A DNA stretch of 64,000 nucleotides, taken from Solirubrobacterales bacterium. GTDB lineage: Bacteria > Actinomycetota > Thermoleophilia > Solirubrobacterales > 70-9. The notes under the pieces are model-generated. The model searched no databases. It was given only the letters and a program-made list of their open reading frames with translations, and was not told the DNA's origin. Position numbers and translations under genes: made by a program. Positions 38,289 through 50,248 of this stretch are shown piece after piece. Every line of letters begins with the position of its first letter. The first letter of the stretch is position 1. Location: assembly GCA_021155855.1 (NCBI GenBank), contig JAJNAZ010000008.1:1-64000 (forward strand), read 5' to 3'.

Positions 38289-39227
38289 ATGGACCCAGTC
38301 GTCACCATCTTCGGGCTCGGCATCGACCCGGCACTAATCGTGTTCGGGTTCGGCATCGGCCTGCTGGTCGGTATGACCGGCATGGGCGGCGCCTCGCTGA
38401 TGACCCCGCTGCTGATCCTCGTCTTCGGGATCAAACCGGTGACCGCGATCGGGACCGACATCTTCTACGCCGCGGTGACGAAGACGGTCGGCGGCTGGAA
38501 GCACATGAAGCTGGGCACCGTCCATCGCGGGATCGCCTTCTGGCTCGCGGTGGGCAGCGTGCCCTCGGCGATCGCCGGCGTCTGGGTGATCGAGCTGCTG
38601 CAGCAGCGCTACGGCGATGACCTCGACGCGGCCGTGCTCGGGATGCTCGGCGGCGCCCTGCTGGTCGTCGGCATCGCCACGCTGCTGCGCTCGCTGTTCC
38701 TCGCCGGCGTGATCCAGGAGCGGTCGGCGCTGCACCTATACCGCCGCCACATAATCGCCGCGGTCGTCACCGGGATCGTCACCGGCTTCGTCATCGGCCT
38801 GACCTCGGCGGGAAGCGGCACTCTGATCGCGATTGCCCTGATCGCGATCTTCCGGCTCACCCCGCAGCGCGTCGTCGGCACCGACGTCTTTCACGCCGCG
38901 GTCCTGCTGTGGGCGGCCGGGGCGGCCCACTGGCTCGGCGGCAACGTCGACTTCCTGCTCGCCGGCACGATCCTGGTCGGCTCGGTCCCGGGTGTGATCG
39001 TCGGCACCAACCTCTCGGTCAAGGCACCGCAGAAGCTGCTTCGCTACGCGCTCGCGGTCGTCTTGATCGTCTCCGGGACGACGTTGATCACGAAGGAGGG
39101 CTCGCCCGGGGTCGTGATCCCAGCGATCGCGGTCGCCAGCGTGATGATCGGGGTCCTCTTCGCCGCCCAGGCGATCTCCCGCGGGCGCTCCAAGGGCCGC
39201 CAGAAGCCGGCCGGCGCCCCCGCGTAG
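38289..39227 (+). CDS. TauE/SafE-family anion permease
   Basis: 312 residues, eight predicted membrane helices in two repeats; each starts with the family glycine-rich loop (GLLVGMTGMGGASLMTPLL in the first half, GFVIGLTSAGSGTLIAIAL in the second). TauE/SafE proteins move sulfite, sulfonates or sulfoacetate, and some relatives handle sulfate or thiosulfate. It follows the Rrf2 regulator in the sulfate locus, so import of sulfate or export of sulfite is the likely role. Direction cannot be told from sequence. Confidence 0.85.
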   Translation: MDPVVTIFGLGIDPALIVFGFGIGLLVGMTGMGGASLMTPLLILVFGIKPVTAIGTDIFYAAVTKTVGGWKHMKLGTVHRGIAFWLAVGSVPSAIAGVWVIELLQQRYGDDLDAAVLGMLGGALLVVGIATLLRSLFLAGVIQERSALHLYRRHIIAAVVTGIVTGFVIGLTSAGSGTLIAIALIAIFRLTPQRVVGTDVFHAAVLLWAAGAAHWLGGNVDFLLAGTILVGSVPGVIVGTNLSVKAPQKLLRYALAVVLIVSGTTLITKEGSPGVVIPAIAVASVMIGVLFAAQAISRGRSKGRQKPAGAPA

Positions 39228-39292: not shown

Positions 39293-40552
39293 GTGGACTT
39301 CGACCTCAGCCCCCGCGTGATTGAGCTTCGCGACCGGATCCGCGCGTTCATGGACGAGCACGTCTATCCGGCCGAGGCCGAGGCGCTGCGCGCGCTCGAC
39401 GAGGAGGTGACGGTCGACTCCGGCCGCACCTACCCCGAGGTCCTGGTCGAGATCCGTGAGCGGGCGCACTCGGAGGGCCTTTGGAACCTGTTCATGCCCG
39501 ACTCCGAGCATGGCGTGGGGCTGACCAACTGGGAGTACGGGGTGCTCTGCGAGGAGATGGGACGCAGCCCGGCGATCGCCCCGATGGCGTTCAACTGCGC
39601 CGCGCCCGACACCGGCAACAGCGAGATCATCGCCGAGCACGGCACCGAGGAGCAAAAGCGACATTGGCTTGCGCCGTTGCTGGACGGCGAGATCCGCTCC
39701 TGCTTTTCGATGACCGAGCCCGAGGTCGCGGGCTCGGACCCTCGGACGCTGCGGACCCGCGCCGAGCTCGACGGCGACGAGTGGGTGATCAACGGCCACA
39801 AGTGGTTCACCTCCGGGGCCGTCGGTGCCTCGGTGGCGATCGCGATGGTGGTCACCAACCCCGAGGCCCACCCGTACGCCCGCGCCTCGATGATCCTCGT
39901 GCCCACCGACGCGCCCGGCTTCGAGCTCGTCCGCCCGGTCCCGGTGATGGGCCACGACGGCGGGCCCGGCCATTGCGAGATCCGCTACACCGACTGCCGG
40001 GTGCCGGCCGAGAACCTGCTCGGCCCGCGCCAGGCCGGATTCGTGATTGCGCAGGACCGCCTCGGTCCCGGTCGCATCCACCACTGCATGCGCGCGATCG
40101 GCACCTGCGAGCGGGCGATCGAGATGATGTGCAAGCGCGCGAATGAGCGCGAGGCGTTCGGCGGCAAGCTGGCCGAGAAGCAGTTCGTCCAGGACTTCAT
40201 CGCCAAATCGCGGATCGAGACCGAGCAGGCACGGCTGCTGACCCTGAACGCGGCCTGGCGCATGGACACCTACGGCAAGAAGGAAGCGCGGCGCGAGATC
40301 TCGATGATCAAGGTCGTCGCCGCCAACGTGGTCATGGACGTGCTCGATCGCGCGATCCAGGTCCACGGCGCGCTCGGGATGTCCGACGACATCCCGCTCG
40401 CGGGCATGTGGCGCTTCTCGCGCATGCTCAAGGTCGCCGACGGCCCCGACGAGGTGCACAAGATGGTGATCGCGCGGCGCGAGCTCAACCGCTGGGCGAA
40501 GGAGGGCGAGGCGGCCGAGCGCCCCGCGCCCGCAGCACCGGTTCGCGCCTAG
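39293..40552 (+). CDS. ACAD10/11-like acyl-CoA dehydrogenase
   Basis: 419 residues, GTG start. Acyl-CoA dehydrogenase fold: CFSMTEPEVAGSDPRTLRT (FAD/substrate loop), WFTSGAVGASVAIAMV, RLGPGRIHHCMRAIG and QVHGALGMSDDIPLA, FAD-binding, with DGPDEVH near the C-terminus. The phrase LGPGRIHHCMR is a mark of the ACAD10/ACAD11 branch. The adjacent gene encodes the matching APH-like kinase. Together they would process 4-hydroxyacyl-CoAs by phosphorylation and elimination, as reported for the mammalian enzymes. Confidence 0.88.
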   Translation: MDFDLSPRVIELRDRIRAFMDEHVYPAEAEALRALDEEVTVDSGRTYPEVLVEIRERAHSEGLWNLFMPDSEHGVGLTNWEYGVLCEEMGRSPAIAPMAFNCAAPDTGNSEIIAEHGTEEQKRHWLAPLLDGEIRSCFSMTEPEVAGSDPRTLRTRAELDGDEWVINGHKWFTSGAVGASVAIAMVVTNPEAHPYARASMILVPTDAPGFELVRPVPVMGHDGGPGHCEIRYTDCRVPAENLLGPRQAGFVIAQDRLGPGRIHHCMRAIGTCERAIEMMCKRANEREAFGGKLAEKQFVQDFIAKSRIETEQARLLTLNAAWRMDTYGKKEARREISMIKVVAANVVMDVLDRAIQVHGALGMSDDIPLAGMWRFSRMLKVADGPDEVHKMVIARRELNRWAKEGEAAERPAPAAPVRA

Positions 40553-40650
40553 CCGGGACGCTCGGTTATCTGGCCGCGATCGATGGTCGGTCCCCGCTCC
40601 TCGCTGCGTCGCCCCCCTCGCCGCGCGCCTTCTCGCGGCCGTGTGAACCG

Positions 40651-41685
40651 CTACGAGAGCCGCCGCTCGGCCGCGTCGGCCGCCTCGACCAGGCGTTCGA
40701 CGGTGTGGGCGAACTGCTGCACGCCGTCATCGGCGTCGGACTCGCCGTACTGCCCTGCGGTGTAGCGGGCGAAGACGCCCTCGAGCACGATCGCCAGCTT
40801 CCAGAGCCCGAGCGCCATGTAGAAGTCGATCTCGGAGAGATCGCGGCCGGAGCGCTCGGCGTACAGGGCACGGACCTCGTCGCGGGTAGGGAACCCCGGG
40901 GCGATGGTCGCCGGCTCCAGCAGCGGCACCAGCTCGTCGCCCTCCTCGCCCCAGTAGACGAGCAGCAGGCCGACGTCGGCGAGCGGGTCGCCGAGCGTGC
41001 ACAGCTCCCAGTCGACCACCGCCGCGACCTCGCCGTCGGACGAGAGGATCACGTTGTCGAGCCGGTAGTCGCCGTGGACGATCGTCGCCGGCCCCTGCTC
41101 GGGGATCCTGGCGGCGAGCCGGTCGTGAACGTCGTCGACAAGCGGCAGCTCGCGCGTGTGCTGCTTCTGCCACTGCCCGTGCCAGCGATGCAGCTGCCGC
41201 GCTACATAGTCCTCCTTTCGCGCCAGTTCGCCGAGGCCGACCGCATCGGGGTCGACATCGTGAATCGTGACCAAGGTCTCGACCACGCGCTCGCCGATCG
41301 CCCGGCGGTCGGAGGGGCGCGGAAACGCGTCCGCCTCGCGGCGCGAGCGCAGGATCGGGCCGTCGACCCAGCCCATGACGTAGAACGGGTCCTCGCCCTC
41401 CTCGGAGAGCCCGACGGCCGGCGGCACCGGGACGGCGGTCCCCTCAAGCGCGGAGATGATTCGAAACTCGCGACCCATGTCGTGGGCGGACGCGAGGCGC
41501 TTGCCCAGCGGCGGCCGGCGCAGGGCCCACCGGCGCCCGGCGGCATCGGCGACCGCGAAGGTCAGGTTCGAGCGCCCGCCGGCGATCCGCTCGAACTCGA
41601 GCGGAAGCTCGACCTCGCCCGCGTTGGCGCCGAACCAGGCCTCGATCCTGGGGGCGTCGAGTCCGTAAGTAGCCTGCTCGGCCAT
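40651..41685 (-). CDS. ACAD10/11-type phosphotransferase (APH family kinase)
   Basis: 344 residues from MAEQATYGLDAPRIEAWFG; the longer upstream frame is a shadow. It has the aminoglycoside-phosphotransferase fold: nucleotide-binding GGRSNLTFAVAD and RRPPLGKRLASAHDM, the catalytic loop IVHGDYRLDNVILS (Asp and Asn) and metal-binding VVDWELCTLGDPLADVG. In animals this domain precedes the dehydrogenase in ACAD10/11. Convergent with the dehydrogenase gene (98-base gap) and divergent, overlapping by two bases, with a HAD remnant. Confidence 0.88.
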   Translation of the reverse strand: MAEQATYGLDAPRIEAWFGANAGEVELPLEFERIAGGRSNLTFAVADAAGRRWALRRPPLGKRLASAHDMGREFRIISALEGTAVPVPPAVGLSEEGEDPFYVMGWVDGPILRSRREADAFPRPSDRRAIGERVVETLVTIHDVDPDAVGLGELARKEDYVARQLHRWHGQWQKQHTRELPLVDDVHDRLAARIPEQGPATIVHGDYRLDNVILSSDGEVAAVVDWELCTLGDPLADVGLLLVYWGEEGDELVPLLEPATIAPGFPTRDEVRALYAERSGRDLSEIDFYMALGLWKLAIVLEGVFARYTAGQYGESDADDGVQQFAHTVERLVEAADAAERRLS

Positions 41686-41890
41686 GGCGCGCAAGCATAT
41701 GGCCCTGATTGTCGATTTCGGCGGCGTGCTGACGACCAGCATCTGGCCGGCGTTGGCGTCCTTATGCGAGGCGAGGGCTTGGCGCCGGACACTGTGCGCG
41801 AACTGCTCAGCTGCGACACTGAGGCACTCACTTTGCTCCGCGGGCAGGAAACCGGGGAGCTCAGCCTCGATGGTGACGCGCCGCCATCCG
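41684..41890 (+). pseudogene. broken HAD-family hydrolase (ACAD10-like N-domain)
   Basis: MALIVDFGGVLTTSIWPALA is the first HAD motif (Asp nucleophile, DxxGV). Near 41774 a one-base loss moves the frame to GLAPDTVRELLSCDTEALTL and LRGQETGELS, the cap-helix segment normal for this family; similarity ends at about 41880. Intact enzymes are about 210-240 residues, so both a frameshift and truncation exist. Start codon within two bases of the divergent kinase start. Confidence 0.65.
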
Positions 41891-42090
41891 CCTTCGCTGA
41901 CGGTTCGCCTACCCGGCGTGGGTCCGCGGAGGGCCGGCGTCGGCGCGGCTTCACCCACCTTGGCGCTCGAAGCGCGCCCGTGTAGCTGACGGCGCAAGCG
42001 CCGAAGTCGAGCGCGCTCGACCATCGCCTTCGGTTTGGCGAGACGAACCGAGAGGTACTTACCGGCGCCACCCGGGTAATAGTCATCCGA

Positions 42091-44772
42091 ATGACAAGCG
42101 GAAATCTTCACGCGTCCAAAAACACCGTGCATCGGGAGGCGCTCGACGCCTTCCGTGTGCCATCGCCGAATGGCGGCCATCCCCAATCGCCGGACGGCGC
42201 CACTCGGCGATCGCCTGGGACCTCCACTCGGCCGCGCAGCGAGGGCAAGTTCGTCTGGCGGGGTGAGCGAAAGCTCTACGTCCGCGGAGCGACGTACGGG
42301 ACGTTCCGCAGGGATCCGCGAAACGGTGCGGAGTATCCCGACCCGCGGGTGGTCGCGCGGGACTTCGCGCGAATGGCCGCCAGCGGCTTCAACGCGGTCA
42401 GGACGTACACCGTTCCTCCGCGCTGGCTTCTCGACCTGGCGGCGGACCACGGCCTCTTCGTCATGGTCGGCCTCCCGTGGGAGCAGCACATCCCCTTCCT
42501 CGACGACCGCGACCGCGCGAGGTCGATCGAGGAGCGCATCCGGGCCGGAGTCGCCGCCTGCACCGGCCACCCGGCCGTGCTGAGCTACGCGATCGGCAAC
42601 GAGATCCGGGCGCCGATTGTGCGTTGGCACGGCCCCCGAGCAGTGGAGCGCTTCCTGGAGCAGCTTTATGCGGCGGCCAAGGATGAGGACCCCGATGGGC
42701 TCGTCACCTACGTCAACTATCCGTCCACCGAGTACCTGGAGCTGCCCTTCCTCGACATCGTCTGCTTCAACGTGTACCTCGAGGCCAAGCGCACGCTCGA
42801 GGCCTACATCGCACGGCTGCACAACCTGTCGGGGGACCGACCGCTGATTCTCGCCGAGATCGGCCTCGACAGCAGGCGAAACGGCGAGGAGCAGCAGGCC
42901 CGAACGCTCGACTGGCAGGTCCGCAGCACCTTCGCGTCGGGGTGCGCCGGGGCATTCGTGTTCGCCTGGACCGACGAGTGGCACATGCACCAGGCAGGGC
43001 CGGAGATGGATTTCGCGGTCGAGGACTGGGACTTCGGGCTCACCGACAGGGGGCGGCGTCCGAAGCCCGCCCTCGCCGCCGTCGCCGACGCATTCTCCGA
43101 GGCGCCCCTCTCCACCGACACCAGCTGGCCTCGGATCTCGGTGCTGGTCTGCACCCACAACGGGGCCCGGACCCTGCCGGACTGCCTCGCGGGCCTCGAG
43201 GCGCTCGAGTACCCGGACTTCGAGGTGATCGTGGTCAGCGACGGCTCCACGGATGCGACGGCGGAGATCGTCCACCGGCACGGCTTCGCGTTGATCCGCG
43301 GTGAGCGGATGGGCCTCGCGGCCGCCCGCAACGCGGGCCTGGAGGCGTCCACCGGCGAGATCGTCGCCTACATAGACGACGACGCGCGGCCGGATCCGCA
43401 TTGGCTCACCTATCTCGCGGACTCGTTTCGGCGTTGGCCCTGGGCGGGGGTCGGCGGGCCCAACCTTCCGCCGCACGGCGACGGATCGGTCGCCGAGGCG
43501 GTCGCCAACGCGCCGGGCGGACCGATCCACGTGCTGGTCTCCGACCAGGAGGCCGAGCACATTCCCGGTTGCAACATGGCGTTTCGCAGGACGGCCCTCG
43601 AGGCGATCGGCGGGTTCGATCCGATCTTCCGTGCCGCGGGCGACGACGTCGACGTGTGCTGGCGGCTCCAGGATCGCGGCTGGAAGATCGGCTTCAACCC
43701 GGCGGCCGTGGTTTGGCACCGCCGCCGCGACTCGGTCGGCGGCTACTGGCGTCAGCAGCGCGGATACGGCCAAGCCGAGGCTCTGGTCGAGCGCAAGTGG
43801 CCGGAGCGCTACAACGGCGCCGGCCACTTGACCTGGAGCGGCCGCATGTACCACCCGGTCACCGAATCGCCGTCGGTGCGCCGGCGGCGAATCCGCTACG
43901 GCAAGTGGGGATCGGGCCTCTTCCAGTCGGTCTACGAGCGGAAGTCGGGAATACTCGCGGCGCTCCCGCTGATGCCGGAGTGGTACCTCGCGATCGTCGG
44001 CCTCGCGCTCCTGACCGCGCTCGGGGCGTTCTGGGCGCCCCTGCTGCTGATCTCCGCGGCGCTCGCGCTCGCCGTCGGCAGTACCCTCACCCAGGCCGGC
44101 CTCGCGGCCAGCCGAGTGGTGCTTCCGGCGACCGAACGCTTCTCAATTGAACCGATGAGGATCCGCACGACGGTCGCCACCCTCTATCTCCTGCAGCCCG
44201 CCGCGCGGCTGTTGGGGCGCATCCGCGGTGGGCTGGCCCCCTGGCGGATGCGCCGCGGCGCCACCCTGCGCGTACCGCGACCGCGACGGGCGGCTCTGTG
44301 GAGCGAGTCGTGGCGGGCGCCGGAGGAGCGGATTCGCGATCTCGAGACGGCGATCAAGGAGGGCGGCGGCTCGGTCGTACACGGCGGAAGCTTCGACCGC
44401 TGGGACCTCGAGGTGCGCTGGGGCGCGCTCGGCTCGGCGCGCCTTCTGATGGCGATCGAGGAGTATCCCGAGGGCAAGCAGTATGTGCGCTGGCGATCCT
44501 GGCCGCGGTTCTCCCTCCACGGGGTCCTGGGCGCCGTCGCCTGCGCCGCGCTCGCGCTCGGGGCGGCGAGCGACGGCGCGCCGGTCGCCGCCGCGGTGCT
44601 TGCCGCGATCGCGGTCGCCCTGCTCGCGCGAACGCTGCGCGACGCCGCCGCGGCCATGGGCAGCATCGTCCGCAGCCTCGACGCGAGCAGGCCATCGCCC
44701 CGTGATGCGGACACGGTGGCCACCCGAAGGGCAAGGGAGGACGACCATGTCGGCGAACCGGCACACCCCTAG
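42091..44772 (+). CDS. fusion: GH2/GH5-type hydrolase domain plus GT2 glycosyltransferase
   Basis: 893 residues. Residues about 52-335 form a TIM-barrel glycosidase of the GH2 catalytic type: KLYVRGATYGTFRRDPR, acid/base Glu171 in YAIGNEIRAP, nucleophile Glu256 in LILAEIGLDS. Residues about 348-600 form a GT2 domain: VLVCTHNGARTLPDCLAGL, DDDARPD (metal-binding, about 429-435), GCNMAFRR and DDVDVCWRLQ (about 518-525). Two to three membrane helices follow (about 631-660, 810-848). One chain thus carries a likely synthase and a hydrolase. The first 50 residues are unconserved. The 3' end overlaps the exporter gene by 26 bases. Confidence 0.88.
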   Translation: MTSGNLHASKNTVHREALDAFRVPSPNGGHPQSPDGATRRSPGTSTRPRSEGKFVWRGERKLYVRGATYGTFRRDPRNGAEYPDPRVVARDFARMAASGFNAVRTYTVPPRWLLDLAADHGLFVMVGLPWEQHIPFLDDRDRARSIEERIRAGVAACTGHPAVLSYAIGNEIRAPIVRWHGPRAVERFLEQLYAAAKDEDPDGLVTYVNYPSTEYLELPFLDIVCFNVYLEAKRTLEAYIARLHNLSGDRPLILAEIGLDSRRNGEEQQARTLDWQVRSTFASGCAGAFVFAWTDEWHMHQAGPEMDFAVEDWDFGLTDRGRRPKPALAAVADAFSEAPLSTDTSWPRISVLVCTHNGARTLPDCLAGLEALEYPDFEVIVVSDGSTDATAEIVHRHGFALIRGERMGLAAARNAGLEASTGEIVAYIDDDARPDPHWLTYLADSFRRWPWAGVGGPNLPPHGDGSVAEAVANAPGGPIHVLVSDQEAEHIPGCNMAFRRTALEAIGGFDPIFRAAGDDVDVCWRLQDRGWKIGFNPAAVVWHRRRDSVGGYWRQQRGYGQAEALVERKWPERYNGAGHLTWSGRMYHPVTESPSVRRRRIRYGKWGSGLFQSVYERKSGILAALPLMPEWYLAIVGLALLTALGAFWAPLLLISAALALAVGSTLTQAGLAASRVVLPATERFSIEPMRIRTTVATLYLLQPAARLLGRIRGGLAPWRMRRGATLRVPRPRRAALWSESWRAPEERIRDLETAIKEGGGSVVHGGSFDRWDLEVRWGALGSARLLMAIEEYPEGKQYVRWRSWPRFSLHGVLGAVACAALALGAASDGAPVAAAVLAAIAVALLARTLRDAAAAMGSIVRSLDASRPSPRDADTVATRRAREDDHVGEPAHP

Positions 44773-46597
44773 CCGGACCTCCGAAACCGGCGGGAACGGC
44801 TCGCGCCGCGCCCCGAGCGCGGCGAGCGATCGTGCGGACGGGTTGCGCACGCCTCCTCGACACGCGCGATCGAGCGTCTACCGGCGGCTGCTTCGCGACG
44901 CCAGGCCGTATGCGCCCCGGATCGCCACGCTCACCCTCCTCAGCCTGCTCGCTACCCCGCTGGCTCTGCTGCTCCCGGTTCCGCTCAAGGTCGCCGTCGA
45001 CAGCGTGATCGGCTCACAGCCCCCGCCCGCGATCCTCGACGACCTGCTCCCTACAGCGGCCACTCAGTCCGATACCGCGCTGCTGATCACGGTCGCGGTG
45101 GTGTTCGTGGCGATCGTCTTCTTGAGCCAACTCGTGGAGCTGGGGAGCCTGATGCTCGGGACCCACGTCGGCGAGCGCCTGCTGATCCTCTTCGGACCTC
45201 CCTGTTTCTGCACGTGCAGCGCCTCTCGCTCTCCTTTCACGACCGTCGAGCGGTCGGCGACTCGGCCTATCGCATCCACTGGGACGCGTCGAACATCCGC
45301 GACCTCGTCGAGGCGCTGTTCCCACTGCTCGCCGGAGTCTCGATGTTCGGGGGGATCCTTTACGTCACCGTGCGAATCAACTGGCAGCTCGCGCTCGTAG
45401 CGATCGCGGTCGCCCCGGTCCTGATCGCGATCGCACGGGTCTACGCGCGGCGGCTGCGCGCGCACTGGCACGCGGCGGAGACGTTCGAGAGCCGCGGGCT
45501 CTCCGTGGTCCAGGAGACGCTGGGCGCCCTGCGAGTTGTGAACGCCTTCGGGCAGGAGCAGCGTGAGGCGGCCCGATTCGCAGAACGCGCGGCGGACGGG
45601 TCGCGGACGCGGCTGCGACTCGCCTTCACCCAGGGCGGCCTGGCGCTCCTGGTCGGGCTGACGACCGCGATCGGGACCGCCGTCGTCCTGTTCGTCGGCG
45701 TCAGCCAGGTCAACTCTCGGTGCGATCACCCTGGGCGAGCTGCTGCTGGTGATGGCGTACCTGACGCTGCTGTATCAACCCCTCGAGGACATGGGCAAGA
45801 GGGTGGCCGATCTTCAGCAGGCGTTCGTCGGGCTTGAGCGCGCGTACTCGCTGCTCGACGAGGATCCCGACGTCGTCGAACGTCCGAACGCTCGCCCGCT
45901 GGCGCACGCGCGGGGGGCGGTCGGCTTCCGCGGGGTCTGGTTCGGCTACCAGCCGGGCGTCTCTGTGCTGGAGGACGTGTCGTTCGAGCTGGCACCGGGA
46001 AGCTTCGTCGGGATCGCCGGAACCACCGGAGCGGGCAAGACGACGCTGGTCAGCCTGCTGACCCGCTTCTACGACCCCGACGCCGGCCGGATCGAGATCG
46101 ACGGGGTCGACCTGCGCGACTACCGGATCGCCGACCTGCGAAACCAGTTCGCGATCGTCCTGCAGGAGCCGGTGCTGTTCTCGACCACGATCGCCGAGAA
46201 CATCGCCTACGGGCGCCCCGGTGCGGGCGAGGAGGACCTCGTGAGCGCCGCGAGGGCCGCCAACGCGCACGACTTCATCGCGGCCCTGCCGGACGGCTAT
46301 CGGACGCAGGTCGGCCAGCGCGGCATGCTGCTCTCGGGGGGCGAGCGACAGCGGATCTCGCTCGCTCGCGCGTTTCTCAAGGACGCCCCGATTCTGATCA
46401 TGGACGAGCCCACGAGCGCCGTCGATTTCGCCACCGAGGAGGCGATCATCGACGCGGCCGACCGCCTCGCGAAGGGGCGCACGACGCTGTTGATCACGCA
46501 CCGCCAGAACGTGCAGCTGCGCTGTGAGCGGATCCTCCGCGTCGAGCGGGGCCGGGTGGCCGAGGGTAAGCCCGCAGCGCCCTCCGGGATTGTGTAG
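44747..46597 (+). pseudogene. ABC exporter (permease-ATPase), two frameshifts
   Basis: A fused MsbA-type ABC exporter, GGGAGG before the ATG, about 616 residues if repaired. The membrane part (TLTLLSLLATPLALLLPVPL, VAVDSVIGSQPPP) breaks near 45193, where a lost C shifts the frame, resumes as RLSLSFHDRRAVGDSAYRIH, and breaks again near 45717, where an extra base precedes GAITLGELLLVMAYL. The ATPase half is intact: Walker A GTTGAGKTT, signature LSGGERQR, Walker B ILIMDEPTSA, H-loop LLITHR. The two indels cancel, and conservation on both sides is high, so sequence error is likely. Exports a lipid or glycan. Confidence 0.8.
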
Positions 46598-46605
46598 GGG
46601 GCCCC

Positions 46606-47232
46606 GTGGAGGGATCGGGGCCCGCCACCGCCGGAGAGGACGAACTGGGACCCGACGGGTGGGCCCACCTCCACGCCTGGGACGATTCGCCGCTCCCGCC
46701 CAACGTTCACGTCGGCGAGGACACCGTGTTCGAGCGCACGAGGCACACGCTTGCCGACTTCCGCAGCACGCGGGCCCCGGGGCTGATGCTCGGCGACGGC
46801 GTTCGTGTCCACCACGGAACCGCCTTCGGCGTCGAGGCCGGGGGGACGGTCGAGGTCGGCGACGGCTCGATCCTCGCCGGGGTCGTCTTCATGTGCGCCG
46901 AGAGGATCACGCTCGGCAGCTGCGTGGTCGCCTCCTACAACGTGACGATCGCCGACTGCGACTTTCACCCCCTCGATCCGGACCTGCGTCGGCGCGACGC
47001 GGTCGCCAACGCCCCGGAGGGCGACCGAAGCGATCGACCGCCCCTGGTCACGGCCCCCGTCGTGGTCGAAGACGGGGCCTGGATCGGGATCGGCGCGATC
47101 GTCCTCAAGGGCGTTCGAATCGGCAGCGGCGCCCGGATCGGGGCCGGTGCGGTGGTCAACGCCGACGTCCCGCGTGGCGCGACCCTCGCCGGCAACCCCG
47201 GCCGGCTGCTGTCCCCGGGGGAGTTCGAATGA
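46606..47232 (+). CDS. hexapeptide-repeat acyltransferase 1
   Basis: 208 residues, GTG start eight bases after the exporter stop. Left-handed beta-helix: repeated hexads such as GVRVHHGTAFGVEAGGTVEV and VVEDGAWIGIGAIVLKGVRI, with the acyl-donor loop NVTIADCDFHPLDPD and a closing AGAVVNADVPRGATLAGNPG. The family moves an acetyl or similar group to a sugar; His in the CDFHP loop is the usual base. Next to a glycan synthase and exporter, O-acetylation of the exported glycan is the natural reading. Confidence 0.85.
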   Translation: MEGSGPATAGEDELGPDGWAHLHAWDDSPLPPNVHVGEDTVFERTRHTLADFRSTRAPGLMLGDGVRVHHGTAFGVEAGGTVEVGDGSILAGVVFMCAERITLGSCVVASYNVTIADCDFHPLDPDLRRRDAVANAPEGDRSDRPPLVTAPVVVEDGAWIGIGAIVLKGVRIGSGARIGAGAVVNADVPRGATLAGNPGRLLSPGEFE

Positions 47233-47779
47233 CCGTCCTCGGCCACGATTGGTACGCGGGCGAGGTGCCGGCCAACGTGGCCCTGGGCGAGCGCAGCTGG
47301 CTGTACAGCTCGTTTGCGTTCGTCCACCATCGCAGCGAGCGCGACCCGAGCGTCCGGGTCGGCCCCGACAGCGGCGTCTACGTCGGCAGTTACTTCGACC
47401 TGGGTCCGGAGGGTGAGGTGGAGATCGGAAGGTATTGCGCGGTCGCGGGCGCGATCTTCCCTCCAACGGCCGTATCGTGATCGGCGACTACGCCTTCATC
47501 GCAAACGGCGTCGTGTTCGCGGACTCGTTCGCAGCGCTCCCGCCCGAGGCCCGCTCGTTCCGGGAGCGCGATCGGGGACCGCGCCGAGGCCTATGGATCG
47601 GCGACGACGTCTGGATCGGGGCGCGCGTCGGGGGAGCCAAGATCGGCGACGGCGCGGTGATCGGCGCGGGCGCGGTGATCGAGGCCGAGGTCCCCGACCG
47701 TGCGGTCGTCGCCGGCAACCCGGCTCGCATCGTCGGCTGGGCGCGACCGGGCACCGGCGCCCGGTCGACCGCCTCATAG
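47229..47779 (+). pseudogene. hexapeptide-repeat acyltransferase 2 (frameshift)
   Basis: ATG overlaps the previous stop (ATGA). It reads MTVLGHDWYAGEVPANVALG, then GVYVGSYFDLGPEGEVEIGR; after AIFP one base is missing in a C run (47459-47461), and the frame continues as SNGRIVIGDYAFIANGVVFA through GDDVWIGARVGGAKIGDGAV. Restored, it is about 183 residues of the same left-handed beta-helix family as its neighbour. The frame is otherwise intact, so error is plausible. Same proposed role: acylating the exported glycan. Confidence 0.75.
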
Positions 47780-47793
47780 ACTGGGGCCCGCCC

Positions 47794-47925
47794 ATGACCA
47801 GCATCGAGACATTCACCGGCCGGATCGAAGCGGCCGAGCTCGGCGCGACCCCGGTCCACGAGCACCTGCGCACGACGACGAGGTGCACGCGCATTGGCCC
47901 CTGCTCGGGATCGAGCTAGCTGCCG
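47794..47925 (+). pseudogene. N-terminal fragment of phosphotriesterase-like amidohydrolase
   Basis: The short frame contains GRIEAAELGATPVHEHLRT, the start of phosphotriesterase-related proteins with the metal-binding HxH (HEH). After one lost base near 47873 the frame reads DDEVHAHWPLLGIEL, as the family does, then stops being coding at the convergent EamA gene. Family proteins are about 310-330 residues, so over 270 are missing. Confidence 0.5.
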
Positions 47926-48755
47926 GCGGCGATCATCGCCACACCTAAGAAGGCGATCAGCACACCGCCCCGCTGCGCCGGCGCGAGCCGCTCGCCGAGA
48001 ACGACGCGCGCCAGCAGGACCGTGACCGCGCCGTAGAGCGAGCCCGCGACCGCGACCAGGGCCAGCAGCCCATGGTTGGTGGCCACGGCGAAGAGGCTGT
48101 TGGCGAGCACGTCGCAGCAGCCGATCGCGATCAGCGCCGGGAACATCGGGCGGGGAACCCGCATCCCCGGCTTCGCCACCGCCGCCACGATCACCAGAGC
48201 CGTCACCCCTCCGGTGCGCGCGGCGACCACGGTCCAGGCGGGTTGCTCGCTGGAGGCGAGGTCGAGGAGCAGAAAGAAGGTGCCGAAGCCCACCGCCGCC
48301 AGCCCCGCGAGGCCGATCGCCGCGCGGCCCGCCGCCCGCCACTCCGGGTCGGGCTCGCGCGCGGCGAGCACCACACCCGGGATCGCGACGGCTGCGCCGA
48401 CGGCCGCGAGCGCCCCCGGCTCCTCGCCCTGGACGAGTCCGCCGGCGACCGGGACGAGCACGCCGAGCGCACCGATCGTCGCCACGACGCTGACCGACCC
48501 GAGCGCCATCGCGCGGTAGAAAGCGCCGAGTGCGCCGACCACGATCGCCCCCGCGGCCGCGCCGGTGAGCGCGTCCTCGCGACTGAGCGGATCGCCGCCG
48601 GCGATCACGGCGTAGGCGAGCGCCAGCACGAGGCCGACCGGCTGGGTCACGAGCAGCACCGTCAGCGCGGAGATCCGCCGGCTCTGCAGGCCGCCGAGGA
48701 AGTCGGAGACACCCCAGGCGATGCTCGAACCGAGGCCGAGCGCTACCCCGAGCAC
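47916..48755 (-). CDS. EamA/DMT-family transporter
   Basis: 279 residues, GTG start, about ten predicted membrane helices in two EamA repeats (SSIAWGVSDFLGGLQ opens the first; TFFLLLDLASSEQPAW opens the second). Members export amino acids, sugars or nucleotide intermediates, with no safe substrate call from sequence. Its start overlaps the end of the next gene upstream (501 aa) by 13 bases, so both are in one operon. Confidence 0.85.
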   Translation of the reverse strand: MLGVALGLGSSIAWGVSDFLGGLQSRRISALTVLLVTQPVGLVLALAYAVIAGGDPLSREDALTGAAAGAIVVGALGAFYRAMALGSVSVVATIGALGVLVPVAGGLVQGEEPGALAAVGAAVAIPGVVLAAREPDPEWRAAGRAAIGLAGLAAVGFGTFFLLLDLASSEQPAWTVVAARTGGVTALVIVAAVAKPGMRVPRPMFPALIAIGCCDVLANSLFAVATNHGLLALVAVAGSLYGAVTVLLARVVLGERLAPAQRGGVLIAFLGVAMIAAGS

Positions 48756-50248
48756 GAGTCCCCGCCCAGGTGGGCCTCGACCCGGACCCGTCCCGGGGTG
48801 GCCGCTTCGATGACCGTCGAGCCGTCATCCGCCTCCCGCACGCAGGCGCTGCCCTCGACCACCCGCCACCAGGACGTGAACTCGATCGCGAGCCGATGGT
48901 CTCCCGGCCGGCGGGCGTCGATCTCGAACCAGTCGGTGCCCACCGCCGCGGCGCCGACGGCGGCCGGCATCTCAACCCGGAAGAGGCGCCAATCGTCGTT
49001 CTCCCACACCGGATCGAGGTAGTCGAGACCAGCCCCGATCAGCTCCACCTCGTCCTCTGCGAGGTAATCGAGGTCGGCATCGGGGACGGCGACGTAGTCC
49101 ACACCGTGGGCATCGAGCCACTCGCGGTAAGCCTCGGGGGTGAGGTTGCCGTCGGTGAACAGCTCGAAGTCGTCGGACTCGAGCTGGCGCAGCCAACCGC
49201 GAGCCAGCGGCTGCTCGGGGGCGACGTAGGCGGCCTCCCATCGGTTTGCCGTCGGCGGAACGTGGATGCGCGTGGGCGACAGCGGCTCGAGTCGGGCGAG
49301 CAGCGGGTCGTAGAAGGCGCGTTCGGTCGCGGGGTCGCCGGCACCCCTGGCGACGTCGCGTACGGGGGCGATCAGCTGCCAGTAGAGCAGCGGGATCGCG
49401 ACCGCGACCACCACCAGCCGCCCGCGCGGCCACAGCACCAGCGCCAGCACCGGCCCGGCGAGTAGCGCCCCGAGCCGGGTGACGTTGCCGCCGAGCGGGT
49501 TCGGGATCACGAACACGGCCAGCGCCAGCAGGGCATAGAGCACGACGCCGATCCGCAGCGCCCGGTACCGGACGGACACGAGCCAGAGCACCGCTGCGGC
49601 GAGCAGTGGCACCGCGATGAACGCGTCGAATACAAACGGCTCCTCGCCGCCGACCGGAAAGGCCAGGTTGAGGGCCACGATAGGCACCGCGGCCCCGAGC
49701 GCCAGCCAGGCGCCGCGGGCACGGGCGCCGGCGAGGCCGATCGCGACGCCGGCGAGGCCGACGAAGAGGCCGGCGACGGGGCTCGCAAGGCTCGCGAGAG
49801 CGGCGAGCAGGGCGCCGGTCGGCGACCGATCCCGGTCGGCGGCGAGCAGGGCGCCGAGCCCGAACGGGACCGCGAGCAGGAACGCCATCCGTCCGGTGAG
49901 CAGCCAGCTCGCAACACCCGCGGCGAACCAGAGCGCCGGGATCAGCCCCCGGTCGCCGAAGCGGCGGTGAACCAGCGCGGCGAAGGTCGCCGCGCCGGCG
50001 ACGACCGCGATCGCGCCCACCAGCCGCACCCCGACGGCGGCGGCCAGGGGCTGGTAAAGCACGCTGTAGGAGAGCAGGTGATGACCCGAGTACCAGCCGT
50101 TGTTCCAGAGCGCGAACCCGTGCTCGGAAAACAGGTCGGCGCGGAAAGTCGCGGCGGCGAGGTCTTGGCTCGGCGGCGCCCAGATCAAATAAACGCCGGC
50201 GAGGACCGCCGCGAGCACGGTCGGGGCCACGATCGTGCGCGCGGGCAA
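48743..50248 (-). CDS. polytopic membrane protein, GT-C-like
   Basis: 501 residues. About ten membrane helices in residues 5-310, with an N-terminal outer loop containing DLFSEHGFALWNNGWYSGHH, then a soluble C-terminal domain of about 190 residues (RIHVPPTANRWEAAYV, DGNLTPEAYREWLDAHGVDY). The acidic first outer loop and many helices recall GT-C polyprenyl-sugar transferases, but no DxD-type motif can be assigned with confidence. It may act on cell-envelope glycans. Coupled to EamA downstream and 7 bases from a helicase stop upstream. Confidence 0.6.
   Translation of the reverse strand: MPARTIVAPTVLAAVLAGVYLIWAPPSQDLAAATFRADLFSEHGFALWNNGWYSGHHLLSYSVLYQPLAAAVGVRLVGAIAVVAGAATFAALVHRRFGDRGLIPALWFAAGVASWLLTGRMAFLLAVPFGLGALLAADRDRSPTGALLAALASLASPVAGLFVGLAGVAIGLAGARARGAWLALGAAVPIVALNLAFPVGGEEPFVFDAFIAVPLLAAAVLWLVSVRYRALRIGVVLYALLALAVFVIPNPLGGNVTRLGALLAGPVLALVLWPRGRLVVVAVAIPLLYWQLIAPVRDVARGAGDPATERAFYDPLLARLEPLSPTRIHVPPTANRWEAAYVAPEQPLARGWLRQLESDDFELFTDGNLTPEAYREWLDAHGVDYVAVPDADLDYLAEDEVELIGAGLDYLDPVWENDDWRLFRVEMPAAVGAAAVGTDWFEIDARRPGDHRLAIEFTSWWRVVEGSACVREADDGSTVIEAATPGRVRVEAHLGGDSCSG

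Follow-up and report, generated by a model that had tools for sequence, protein, structure and literature searches.

In animals, the kinase and the dehydrogenase of this type are fused into single proteins that serve the breakdown of 4-hydroxy fatty acids, ACAD10 being arranged as HAD-kinase-dehydrogenase and ACAD11 as kinase-dehydrogenase (PMC11342911, PMC12440821). The lva operon of Pseudomonas putida, which serves the catabolism of levulinic acid, carries LvaA and LvaC as separate genes, according to the accounts of Rand et al. 2017 given in PMC11342911 and PMC12440821. It was documented that ACAD11 and LvaA/LvaC function without a HAD, and that bacterial orthologues of both ACAD10 domains, from B. 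pseudomallei, work in vitro (PMC11342911). Paquay et al. reported that the HAD of ACAD10, which is without a complete DxD motif, has negligible phosphatase activity and restrains the kinase, and that disabling it raised the kinase output (PMC11342911). Modelling and mutagenesis led Rashan et al. to locate R626, H634 and R637 of ACAD11 at the 4-phospho group, with R631 and the catalytic D753 adjoining them (PMC12440821). In the lva cluster of P. citronellolis there is also a histidine phosphatase, for which the authors of that study suggested an action on the 4-phospho intermediate (PMC6692424).

The window, meaning the whole stretch of 64,000 nucleotides of Solirubrobacterales DNA analysed here, had been predicted to hold a dehydrogenase, an APH-type kinase and a broken HAD gene next to each other. 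The trio exists, as indicated by Pfam, by the solved relatives of the two enzymes and by matches of the HAD remnant to intact HADs. The features of the locus are listed below.

38289-39227, plus strand: TauE/SafE-type exporter, upstream of the dehydrogenase and in the conserved block of several relatives
39293-40552, plus strand: acyl-CoA dehydrogenase of the ACAD10/11/LvaC type, 419 aa, intact, assigned by Pfam and solved relatives
40651-41685, minus strand: APH-fold kinase of the ACAD10/11 (LvaA-like) type, 344 aa, intact, PF01636, convergent with the dehydrogenase
41684-41868, plus strand: HAD pseudogene remnant of about 60 N-terminal residues (VDFGGVLTTSIW...) in two frames, divergent from the kinase, 3' two thirds lost
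41869-47915, no strand assigned: segment replacing the 3' part of the HAD gene, absent from this site in all relatives compared
42091-44772, in the segment: glycosyltransferase-2 fusion gene, fused to a glycoside-hydrolase-2-like N-terminal region
44776-46597, in the segment: ABC exporter in broken frames, more than one frame being needed
46606-47779, in the segment: two hexapeptide acyltransferase ORFs
47916-48755, minus strand: transporter-like gene, which adjoins the intact HAD in two relatives (G012 and G019) and bounds the segment on its far side

As far as the published description goes, the locus resembles LvaA/LvaC of P. putida in having separate kinase and dehydrogenase genes of the same families with the same predicted 4-phosphoacyl-CoA chemistry. 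Unlike the lva operon, the pair in the window is convergent and does not form one operon, and it has, or once had, a HAD gene beside it. LvaB, LvaD (SDR) and LvaE (CoA ligase) were looked for next to the pair in the flanks of the locus and not found; these flanks hold the TauE exporter, a PHP gene, a cyclase gene and the inserted segment. With mammalian ACAD10 and ACAD11, the locus shares the domain families, the conserved dehydrogenase pocket and the incomplete-DxD type of HAD, the ACAD10 HAD being compared by its description. It differs from ACAD10 in that the genes are separate, lie on two strands and include a broken HAD, so that its present state resembles ACAD11. The original prediction described an ACAD10-like pathway that had been split, and this has to be reversed, because bacteria normally have these genes separate, as in the lva operon, and it is the animals that have fused them (PMC11342911, PMC12440821).

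The dehydrogenase matched the Pfam Acyl-CoA_dh N, M and 1 domains in a profile search, and its best matches among solved structures were 4hr3 (1.3e-110) and mouse ACAD11 (8v3u, 2.7e-109). All of 4hr3, 8v3u, 8v3v and 2wbi scored E values below 1e-106, while the next dehydrogenase class came at about 1e-48 or weaker. The RLGPGRIHHCMR motif occupies residues 256-267, and a catalytic-type DGPDE with D386 is present. In a gapless alignment, the counterparts of R626, H634, R637, R631 and D753 of ACAD11 were all found in the dehydrogenase, in RLGPGRIHHCMR and DGPDEVH. The full phosphate-contact trio was seen in this protein only, one of the eight dehydrogenases checked in the genome, and was missing from the seven paralogues; the other dehydrogenase matches in the genome had at best 35% identity over most of their length. 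By these matches and residues, the dehydrogenase belongs with ACAD10/11 and not with other dehydrogenase classes.

The kinase matched PF01636 (1.9e-47 in the Pfam search), and its nearest solved relatives are 9o56, 3dxp and ACAD11 (8v3v), with an E value of 2.2e-35 to the ACAD11 kinase domain. The best of them, 9o56, is annotated just as an aminoglycoside phosphotransferase. D206 and N211, both in the motif HGDYRLDN, and R163 align with the catalytic D220 and N225 and the CoA-contact R176 of ACAD11, and R86, the second CoA contact reported for ACAD11, has no certain position in the alignment. The fold and these catalytic and CoA-contact residues assign the protein to the ACAD10/11 (LvaA-like) type. 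Only one other kinase match occurs in the genome, at 33% identity; the genome-wide search thus gave one close dehydrogenase and one close kinase. A search of viral contigs for a relative of the kinase found none, and a literature search on FadE36-type phosphotransferases gave nothing relevant.

The HAD gene was recognised through the intact HAD genes of relatives, as the frames of the remnant alone matched no Pfam or NCBIfam family. The intact HADs match the remnant at 41696-41776 and 41761-41868 in two different frames. Against the copy of the same genus, the identity was 83% over 24 residues and 67% over 30 (E 1.8e-12), or 40 of 54 residues (74%) when the pieces were pooled. The remnant lies at the orthologous site and is divergent from the kinase, and is therefore no chance match. 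The kinase is also 74% identical to its copy in that genus, and since the remnant has stayed as similar as the kinase, the loss of the HAD in this genome looks recent. At 41683-41686, the kinase start codon overlaps the first ATG of the remnant frame on the opposite strand; in relatives, the two matches are 20-78 bp apart.

The remnant keeps about 60 of about 205 residues, so that about 145 codons are gone, which goes beyond a mere frameshift. When the lost C-terminal part was sought in 41600-48800, only chance-level matches appeared, and a genome-wide search found no close match, the closest other HAD being a 37% paralogue on another contig (C9). The segment is bordered by syntenic sequence on either side, and the homologous flanking genes are full length; in a further relative (G001), the intact HAD is adjoined by a gene that matches 48749-50245 of the window. 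From these comparisons, the break is a segment replacement, or an insertion with deletion, and not a simple frameshift. The predicted frameshift in the HAD is real, in that two frames are needed, and it gives an incomplete account of a gene that is also truncated and whose remainder was replaced by an unrelated segment of about 6 kb. The HAD is intact in other members of the family, which places the break in this genome alone. Given the synteny of both flanks, an assembly join is an unlikely cause of the break. A check of the segment edges for repeats gave no clear insertion signature. At the far end of the segment, a short phosphotriesterase-like start was noted by eye only. The membrane and ATPase parts of the ABC exporter at 44776-46597 are in different frames, by genuine decay or by a local sequence error.

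The original prediction had proposed a search of bacterial genomes for the trio, and the combination was found beyond this genome. The comparison set comprised 81 related genomes, with the kinase in 68, of which 44 are in the same family. The dehydrogenase lies within 3 kb of the kinase in 35 of these 44 family genomes, convergent downstream in most, and a HAD of the right type is divergent from the kinase, at a distance of 20-78 bp, in 12; most of the other family genomes have none beside the kinase. The arrangement varies outside the family: in families f2 and f3, the HAD mostly follows a kinase closely, downstream of it and in the same orientation, and the dehydrogenase orthologue of f3 is away from the kinase. 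At the order level, 28 of the 34 HAD matches with at least 39% identity have a kinase within 500 bp. When 296 genomes from across the phylum were sampled, the same distance to an ACAD10/11-like kinase was found for 22 of 36 HADs scoring at least 160 bits and for none of the 11 weaker ones, the 160-bit line having been picked after the scores were seen. On a Tsukamurella plasmid, a single run of genes comprises the HAD, fabG, MaoC, the kinase and a dehydrogenase that has the complete pocket, and a Rhodococcus opacus plasmid has the HAD, fabG, MaoC and the kinase. A literature search on a HAD-kinase-dehydrogenase gene cluster found nothing relevant.

The kinase that partners the HAD in f2 and f3 belongs to another deep clade than the kinase of the window. 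In two f3 loci (L101 and L102, in genomes G067 and G050), a HAD 57-58% identical to a HAD of family f1 stands downstream of such a kinase, which is about 41% identical to that of the window. The HAD and its kinase partners seem, from their sequences, to have been exchanged. The kinase tree joins the window to the same-genus relative bearing the intact HAD (support 99/94). Genus g4, with none beside its kinase, falls inside the HAD-bearing clade, in which the ordering branches are moderately supported (80-87), and at least two separate losses inside this clade, in the window genome and in g4, are likely but not certain. Genera g8, g10 and g11 of the family lack a HAD of this type in the vicinity of the kinase, and most of them retain the dehydrogenase there. 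The predicted dispensability of the HAD for the core reaction agrees with the many relatives without an adjacent HAD, but as a new hint it does not stand, as the same was known from ACAD11 and LvaA/LvaC. The repeated absence of the HAD beside the kinase and dehydrogenase of many relatives is also better evidence for dispensability than the break in the window, which is the local segment replacement of one genome.

Among the families tested, the intact HADs matched best to TIGR02247 (HAD-1A3-hyp, epoxide hydrolase N-terminal-like phosphatase), with 82-109 bits, well above other subfamilies and below the curated cut-off of 125.4 bits. The nearest solved protein, by sequence and by predicted structure, is the N-domain of soluble epoxide hydrolase (mean pLDDT 92.7; TM 0.80 to 5mwa). 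In contrast to TIGR02247, the second Asp of the DxD motif is replaced by Gly in all 12 aligned HADs, which carry DFGGVLT, and most of the further HADs carry D[FY]GGVLT; the other motif positions, D12, S116, K144 and D168-D169, are kept. The incomplete DxD is common to the HADs of the relatives and the ACAD10 HAD, known to us by its published description, and this supports their correspondence. The predicted equivalence of the trio to the three parts of ACAD10 was thus upheld by the phospho-pocket residues of the dehydrogenase, by the D/N and CoA-contact R of the kinase and by these TIGR02247-type HADs.

The gene identities, the pocket residues, the conservation of the linkage and the broken state of the HAD are established, and we consider it probable that the locus is a two-enzyme route feeding 4-hydroxyacyl-CoAs into beta-oxidation; the substrate, the reaction in the organism and the role of the HAD are what we infer. 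Judging from the protein families (PMC11342911, PMC12440821), the kinase would phosphorylate the 4-hydroxyl of a 4-hydroxyacyl-CoA with ATP, and the dehydrogenase would oxidise C2-C3 with transient use of FAD, eliminate the 4-phosphate and hand the hydride back, so that a 2-enoyl-CoA would be formed and enter beta-oxidation. The ancestor presumably had a stand-alone HAD gene of the sEH-N/ACAD10 type divergent beside the kinase. In lineages retaining it, the HAD probably acts as a restraint on this step: it may hydrolyse 4-phosphoacyl-CoA that has strayed, or it may bind this compound and so dampen the kinase. In the window genome, most of the gene was replaced by the segment of about 6 kb, and a dead remnant was left. 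Against this route, the match of the kinase to ACAD11 is moderate, 9o56 being closer, the flanks hold no genes like LvaB, LvaD or LvaE, the f3 dehydrogenase orthologue is away from its kinase, the intact HADs stay under the TIGR02247 cut-off, and the two genes are on opposite strands rather than in one operon. The kinase might act on another hydroxylated substrate, such as another CoA ester or a small molecule, leaving only the dehydrogenase in the 4-hydroxyacyl-CoA route, and the bare aminoglycoside phosphotransferase annotation of 9o56 and the pairing of the f2/f3 HAD with a different deep kinase clade, whose substrates may differ, are in line with it. However, the linkage to the sole dehydrogenase with a 4-phosphoacyl pocket is conserved and the genome has no second close kinase to make the substrate of this dehydrogenase, and we regard a different kinase substrate as unlikely. 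It is still less probable that the HAD gene is in fact intact and its break an assembly or sequencing error: the assembly is incomplete, with 75 contigs, and the frames needed by the neighbouring exporter could mean poor local sequence, but the missing codons are absent rather than shifted, no close C-terminal fragment was found in the genome, and the conserved genes on both sides are syntenic and full length.

Within the two-enzyme route, the HAD partner may have true phosphatase activity, by which 4-phosphoacyl-CoA is recycled or detoxified, as opposed to being the purely allosteric damper proposed for ACAD10. The retained motif positions speak for a phosphatase, as do the histidine phosphatases standing directly after kinases of the same kind on plasmids of Deinococcus and Azospirillum and the one present in the P. 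citronellolis lva cluster. The absence of the second Asp from every aligned HAD argues against it, as does the negligible activity of the ACAD10 HAD, and the chances of a phosphatase role are about even, if anything slightly below.

The core reaction was already known, and the gene set is widespread in bacteria and was largely expected. The least expected finding is that a conserved family of stand-alone HADs, whose DxD is incomplete (DxGGVLT), is paired with ACAD10/11-type kinases. Tentatively, and with somewhat less than an even chance in our estimate, the D[FY]GGVLT family of Actinomycetota, paired with at least two deep kinase clades, may be the free-standing counterpart of the regulatory HAD of ACAD10, acting as a separable brake or a phosphatase at the step of 4-phosphoacyl-CoA, lost on more than one occasion, here recently, and substituted by an unrelated histidine phosphatase in other phyla. 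These genomes offer natural pairs for the same kinase-dehydrogenase route, with the HAD present, absent or freshly broken, and what the HAD domain of ACAD10 does could thereby become approachable with simple bacterial proteins.

The P. citronellolis lva cluster likewise has a phosphatase gene beside the kinase and dehydrogenase (PMC6692424), although its histidine phosphatase has a fold unrelated to the HAD. In the stretches read from Bosea, Cytobacillus, Terrarubrum, Sphingopyxis and D. psychrotolerans, no phosphatase is annotated next to the kinase. A histidine phosphatase directly follows the kinase on plasmids of Deinococcus deserti, D. gobiensis, D. radiodurans and Azospirillum thermophilum, PF00300 being confirmed in three of the four proteins. 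The histidine phosphatases beside the kinases favour a genuine phosphatase role for the accessory proteins at the 4-phospho step. At these four plasmid loci (L112, L115, L116 and L119), an unrelated phosphatase fold stands in the place that the HAD holds in Actinomycetota.
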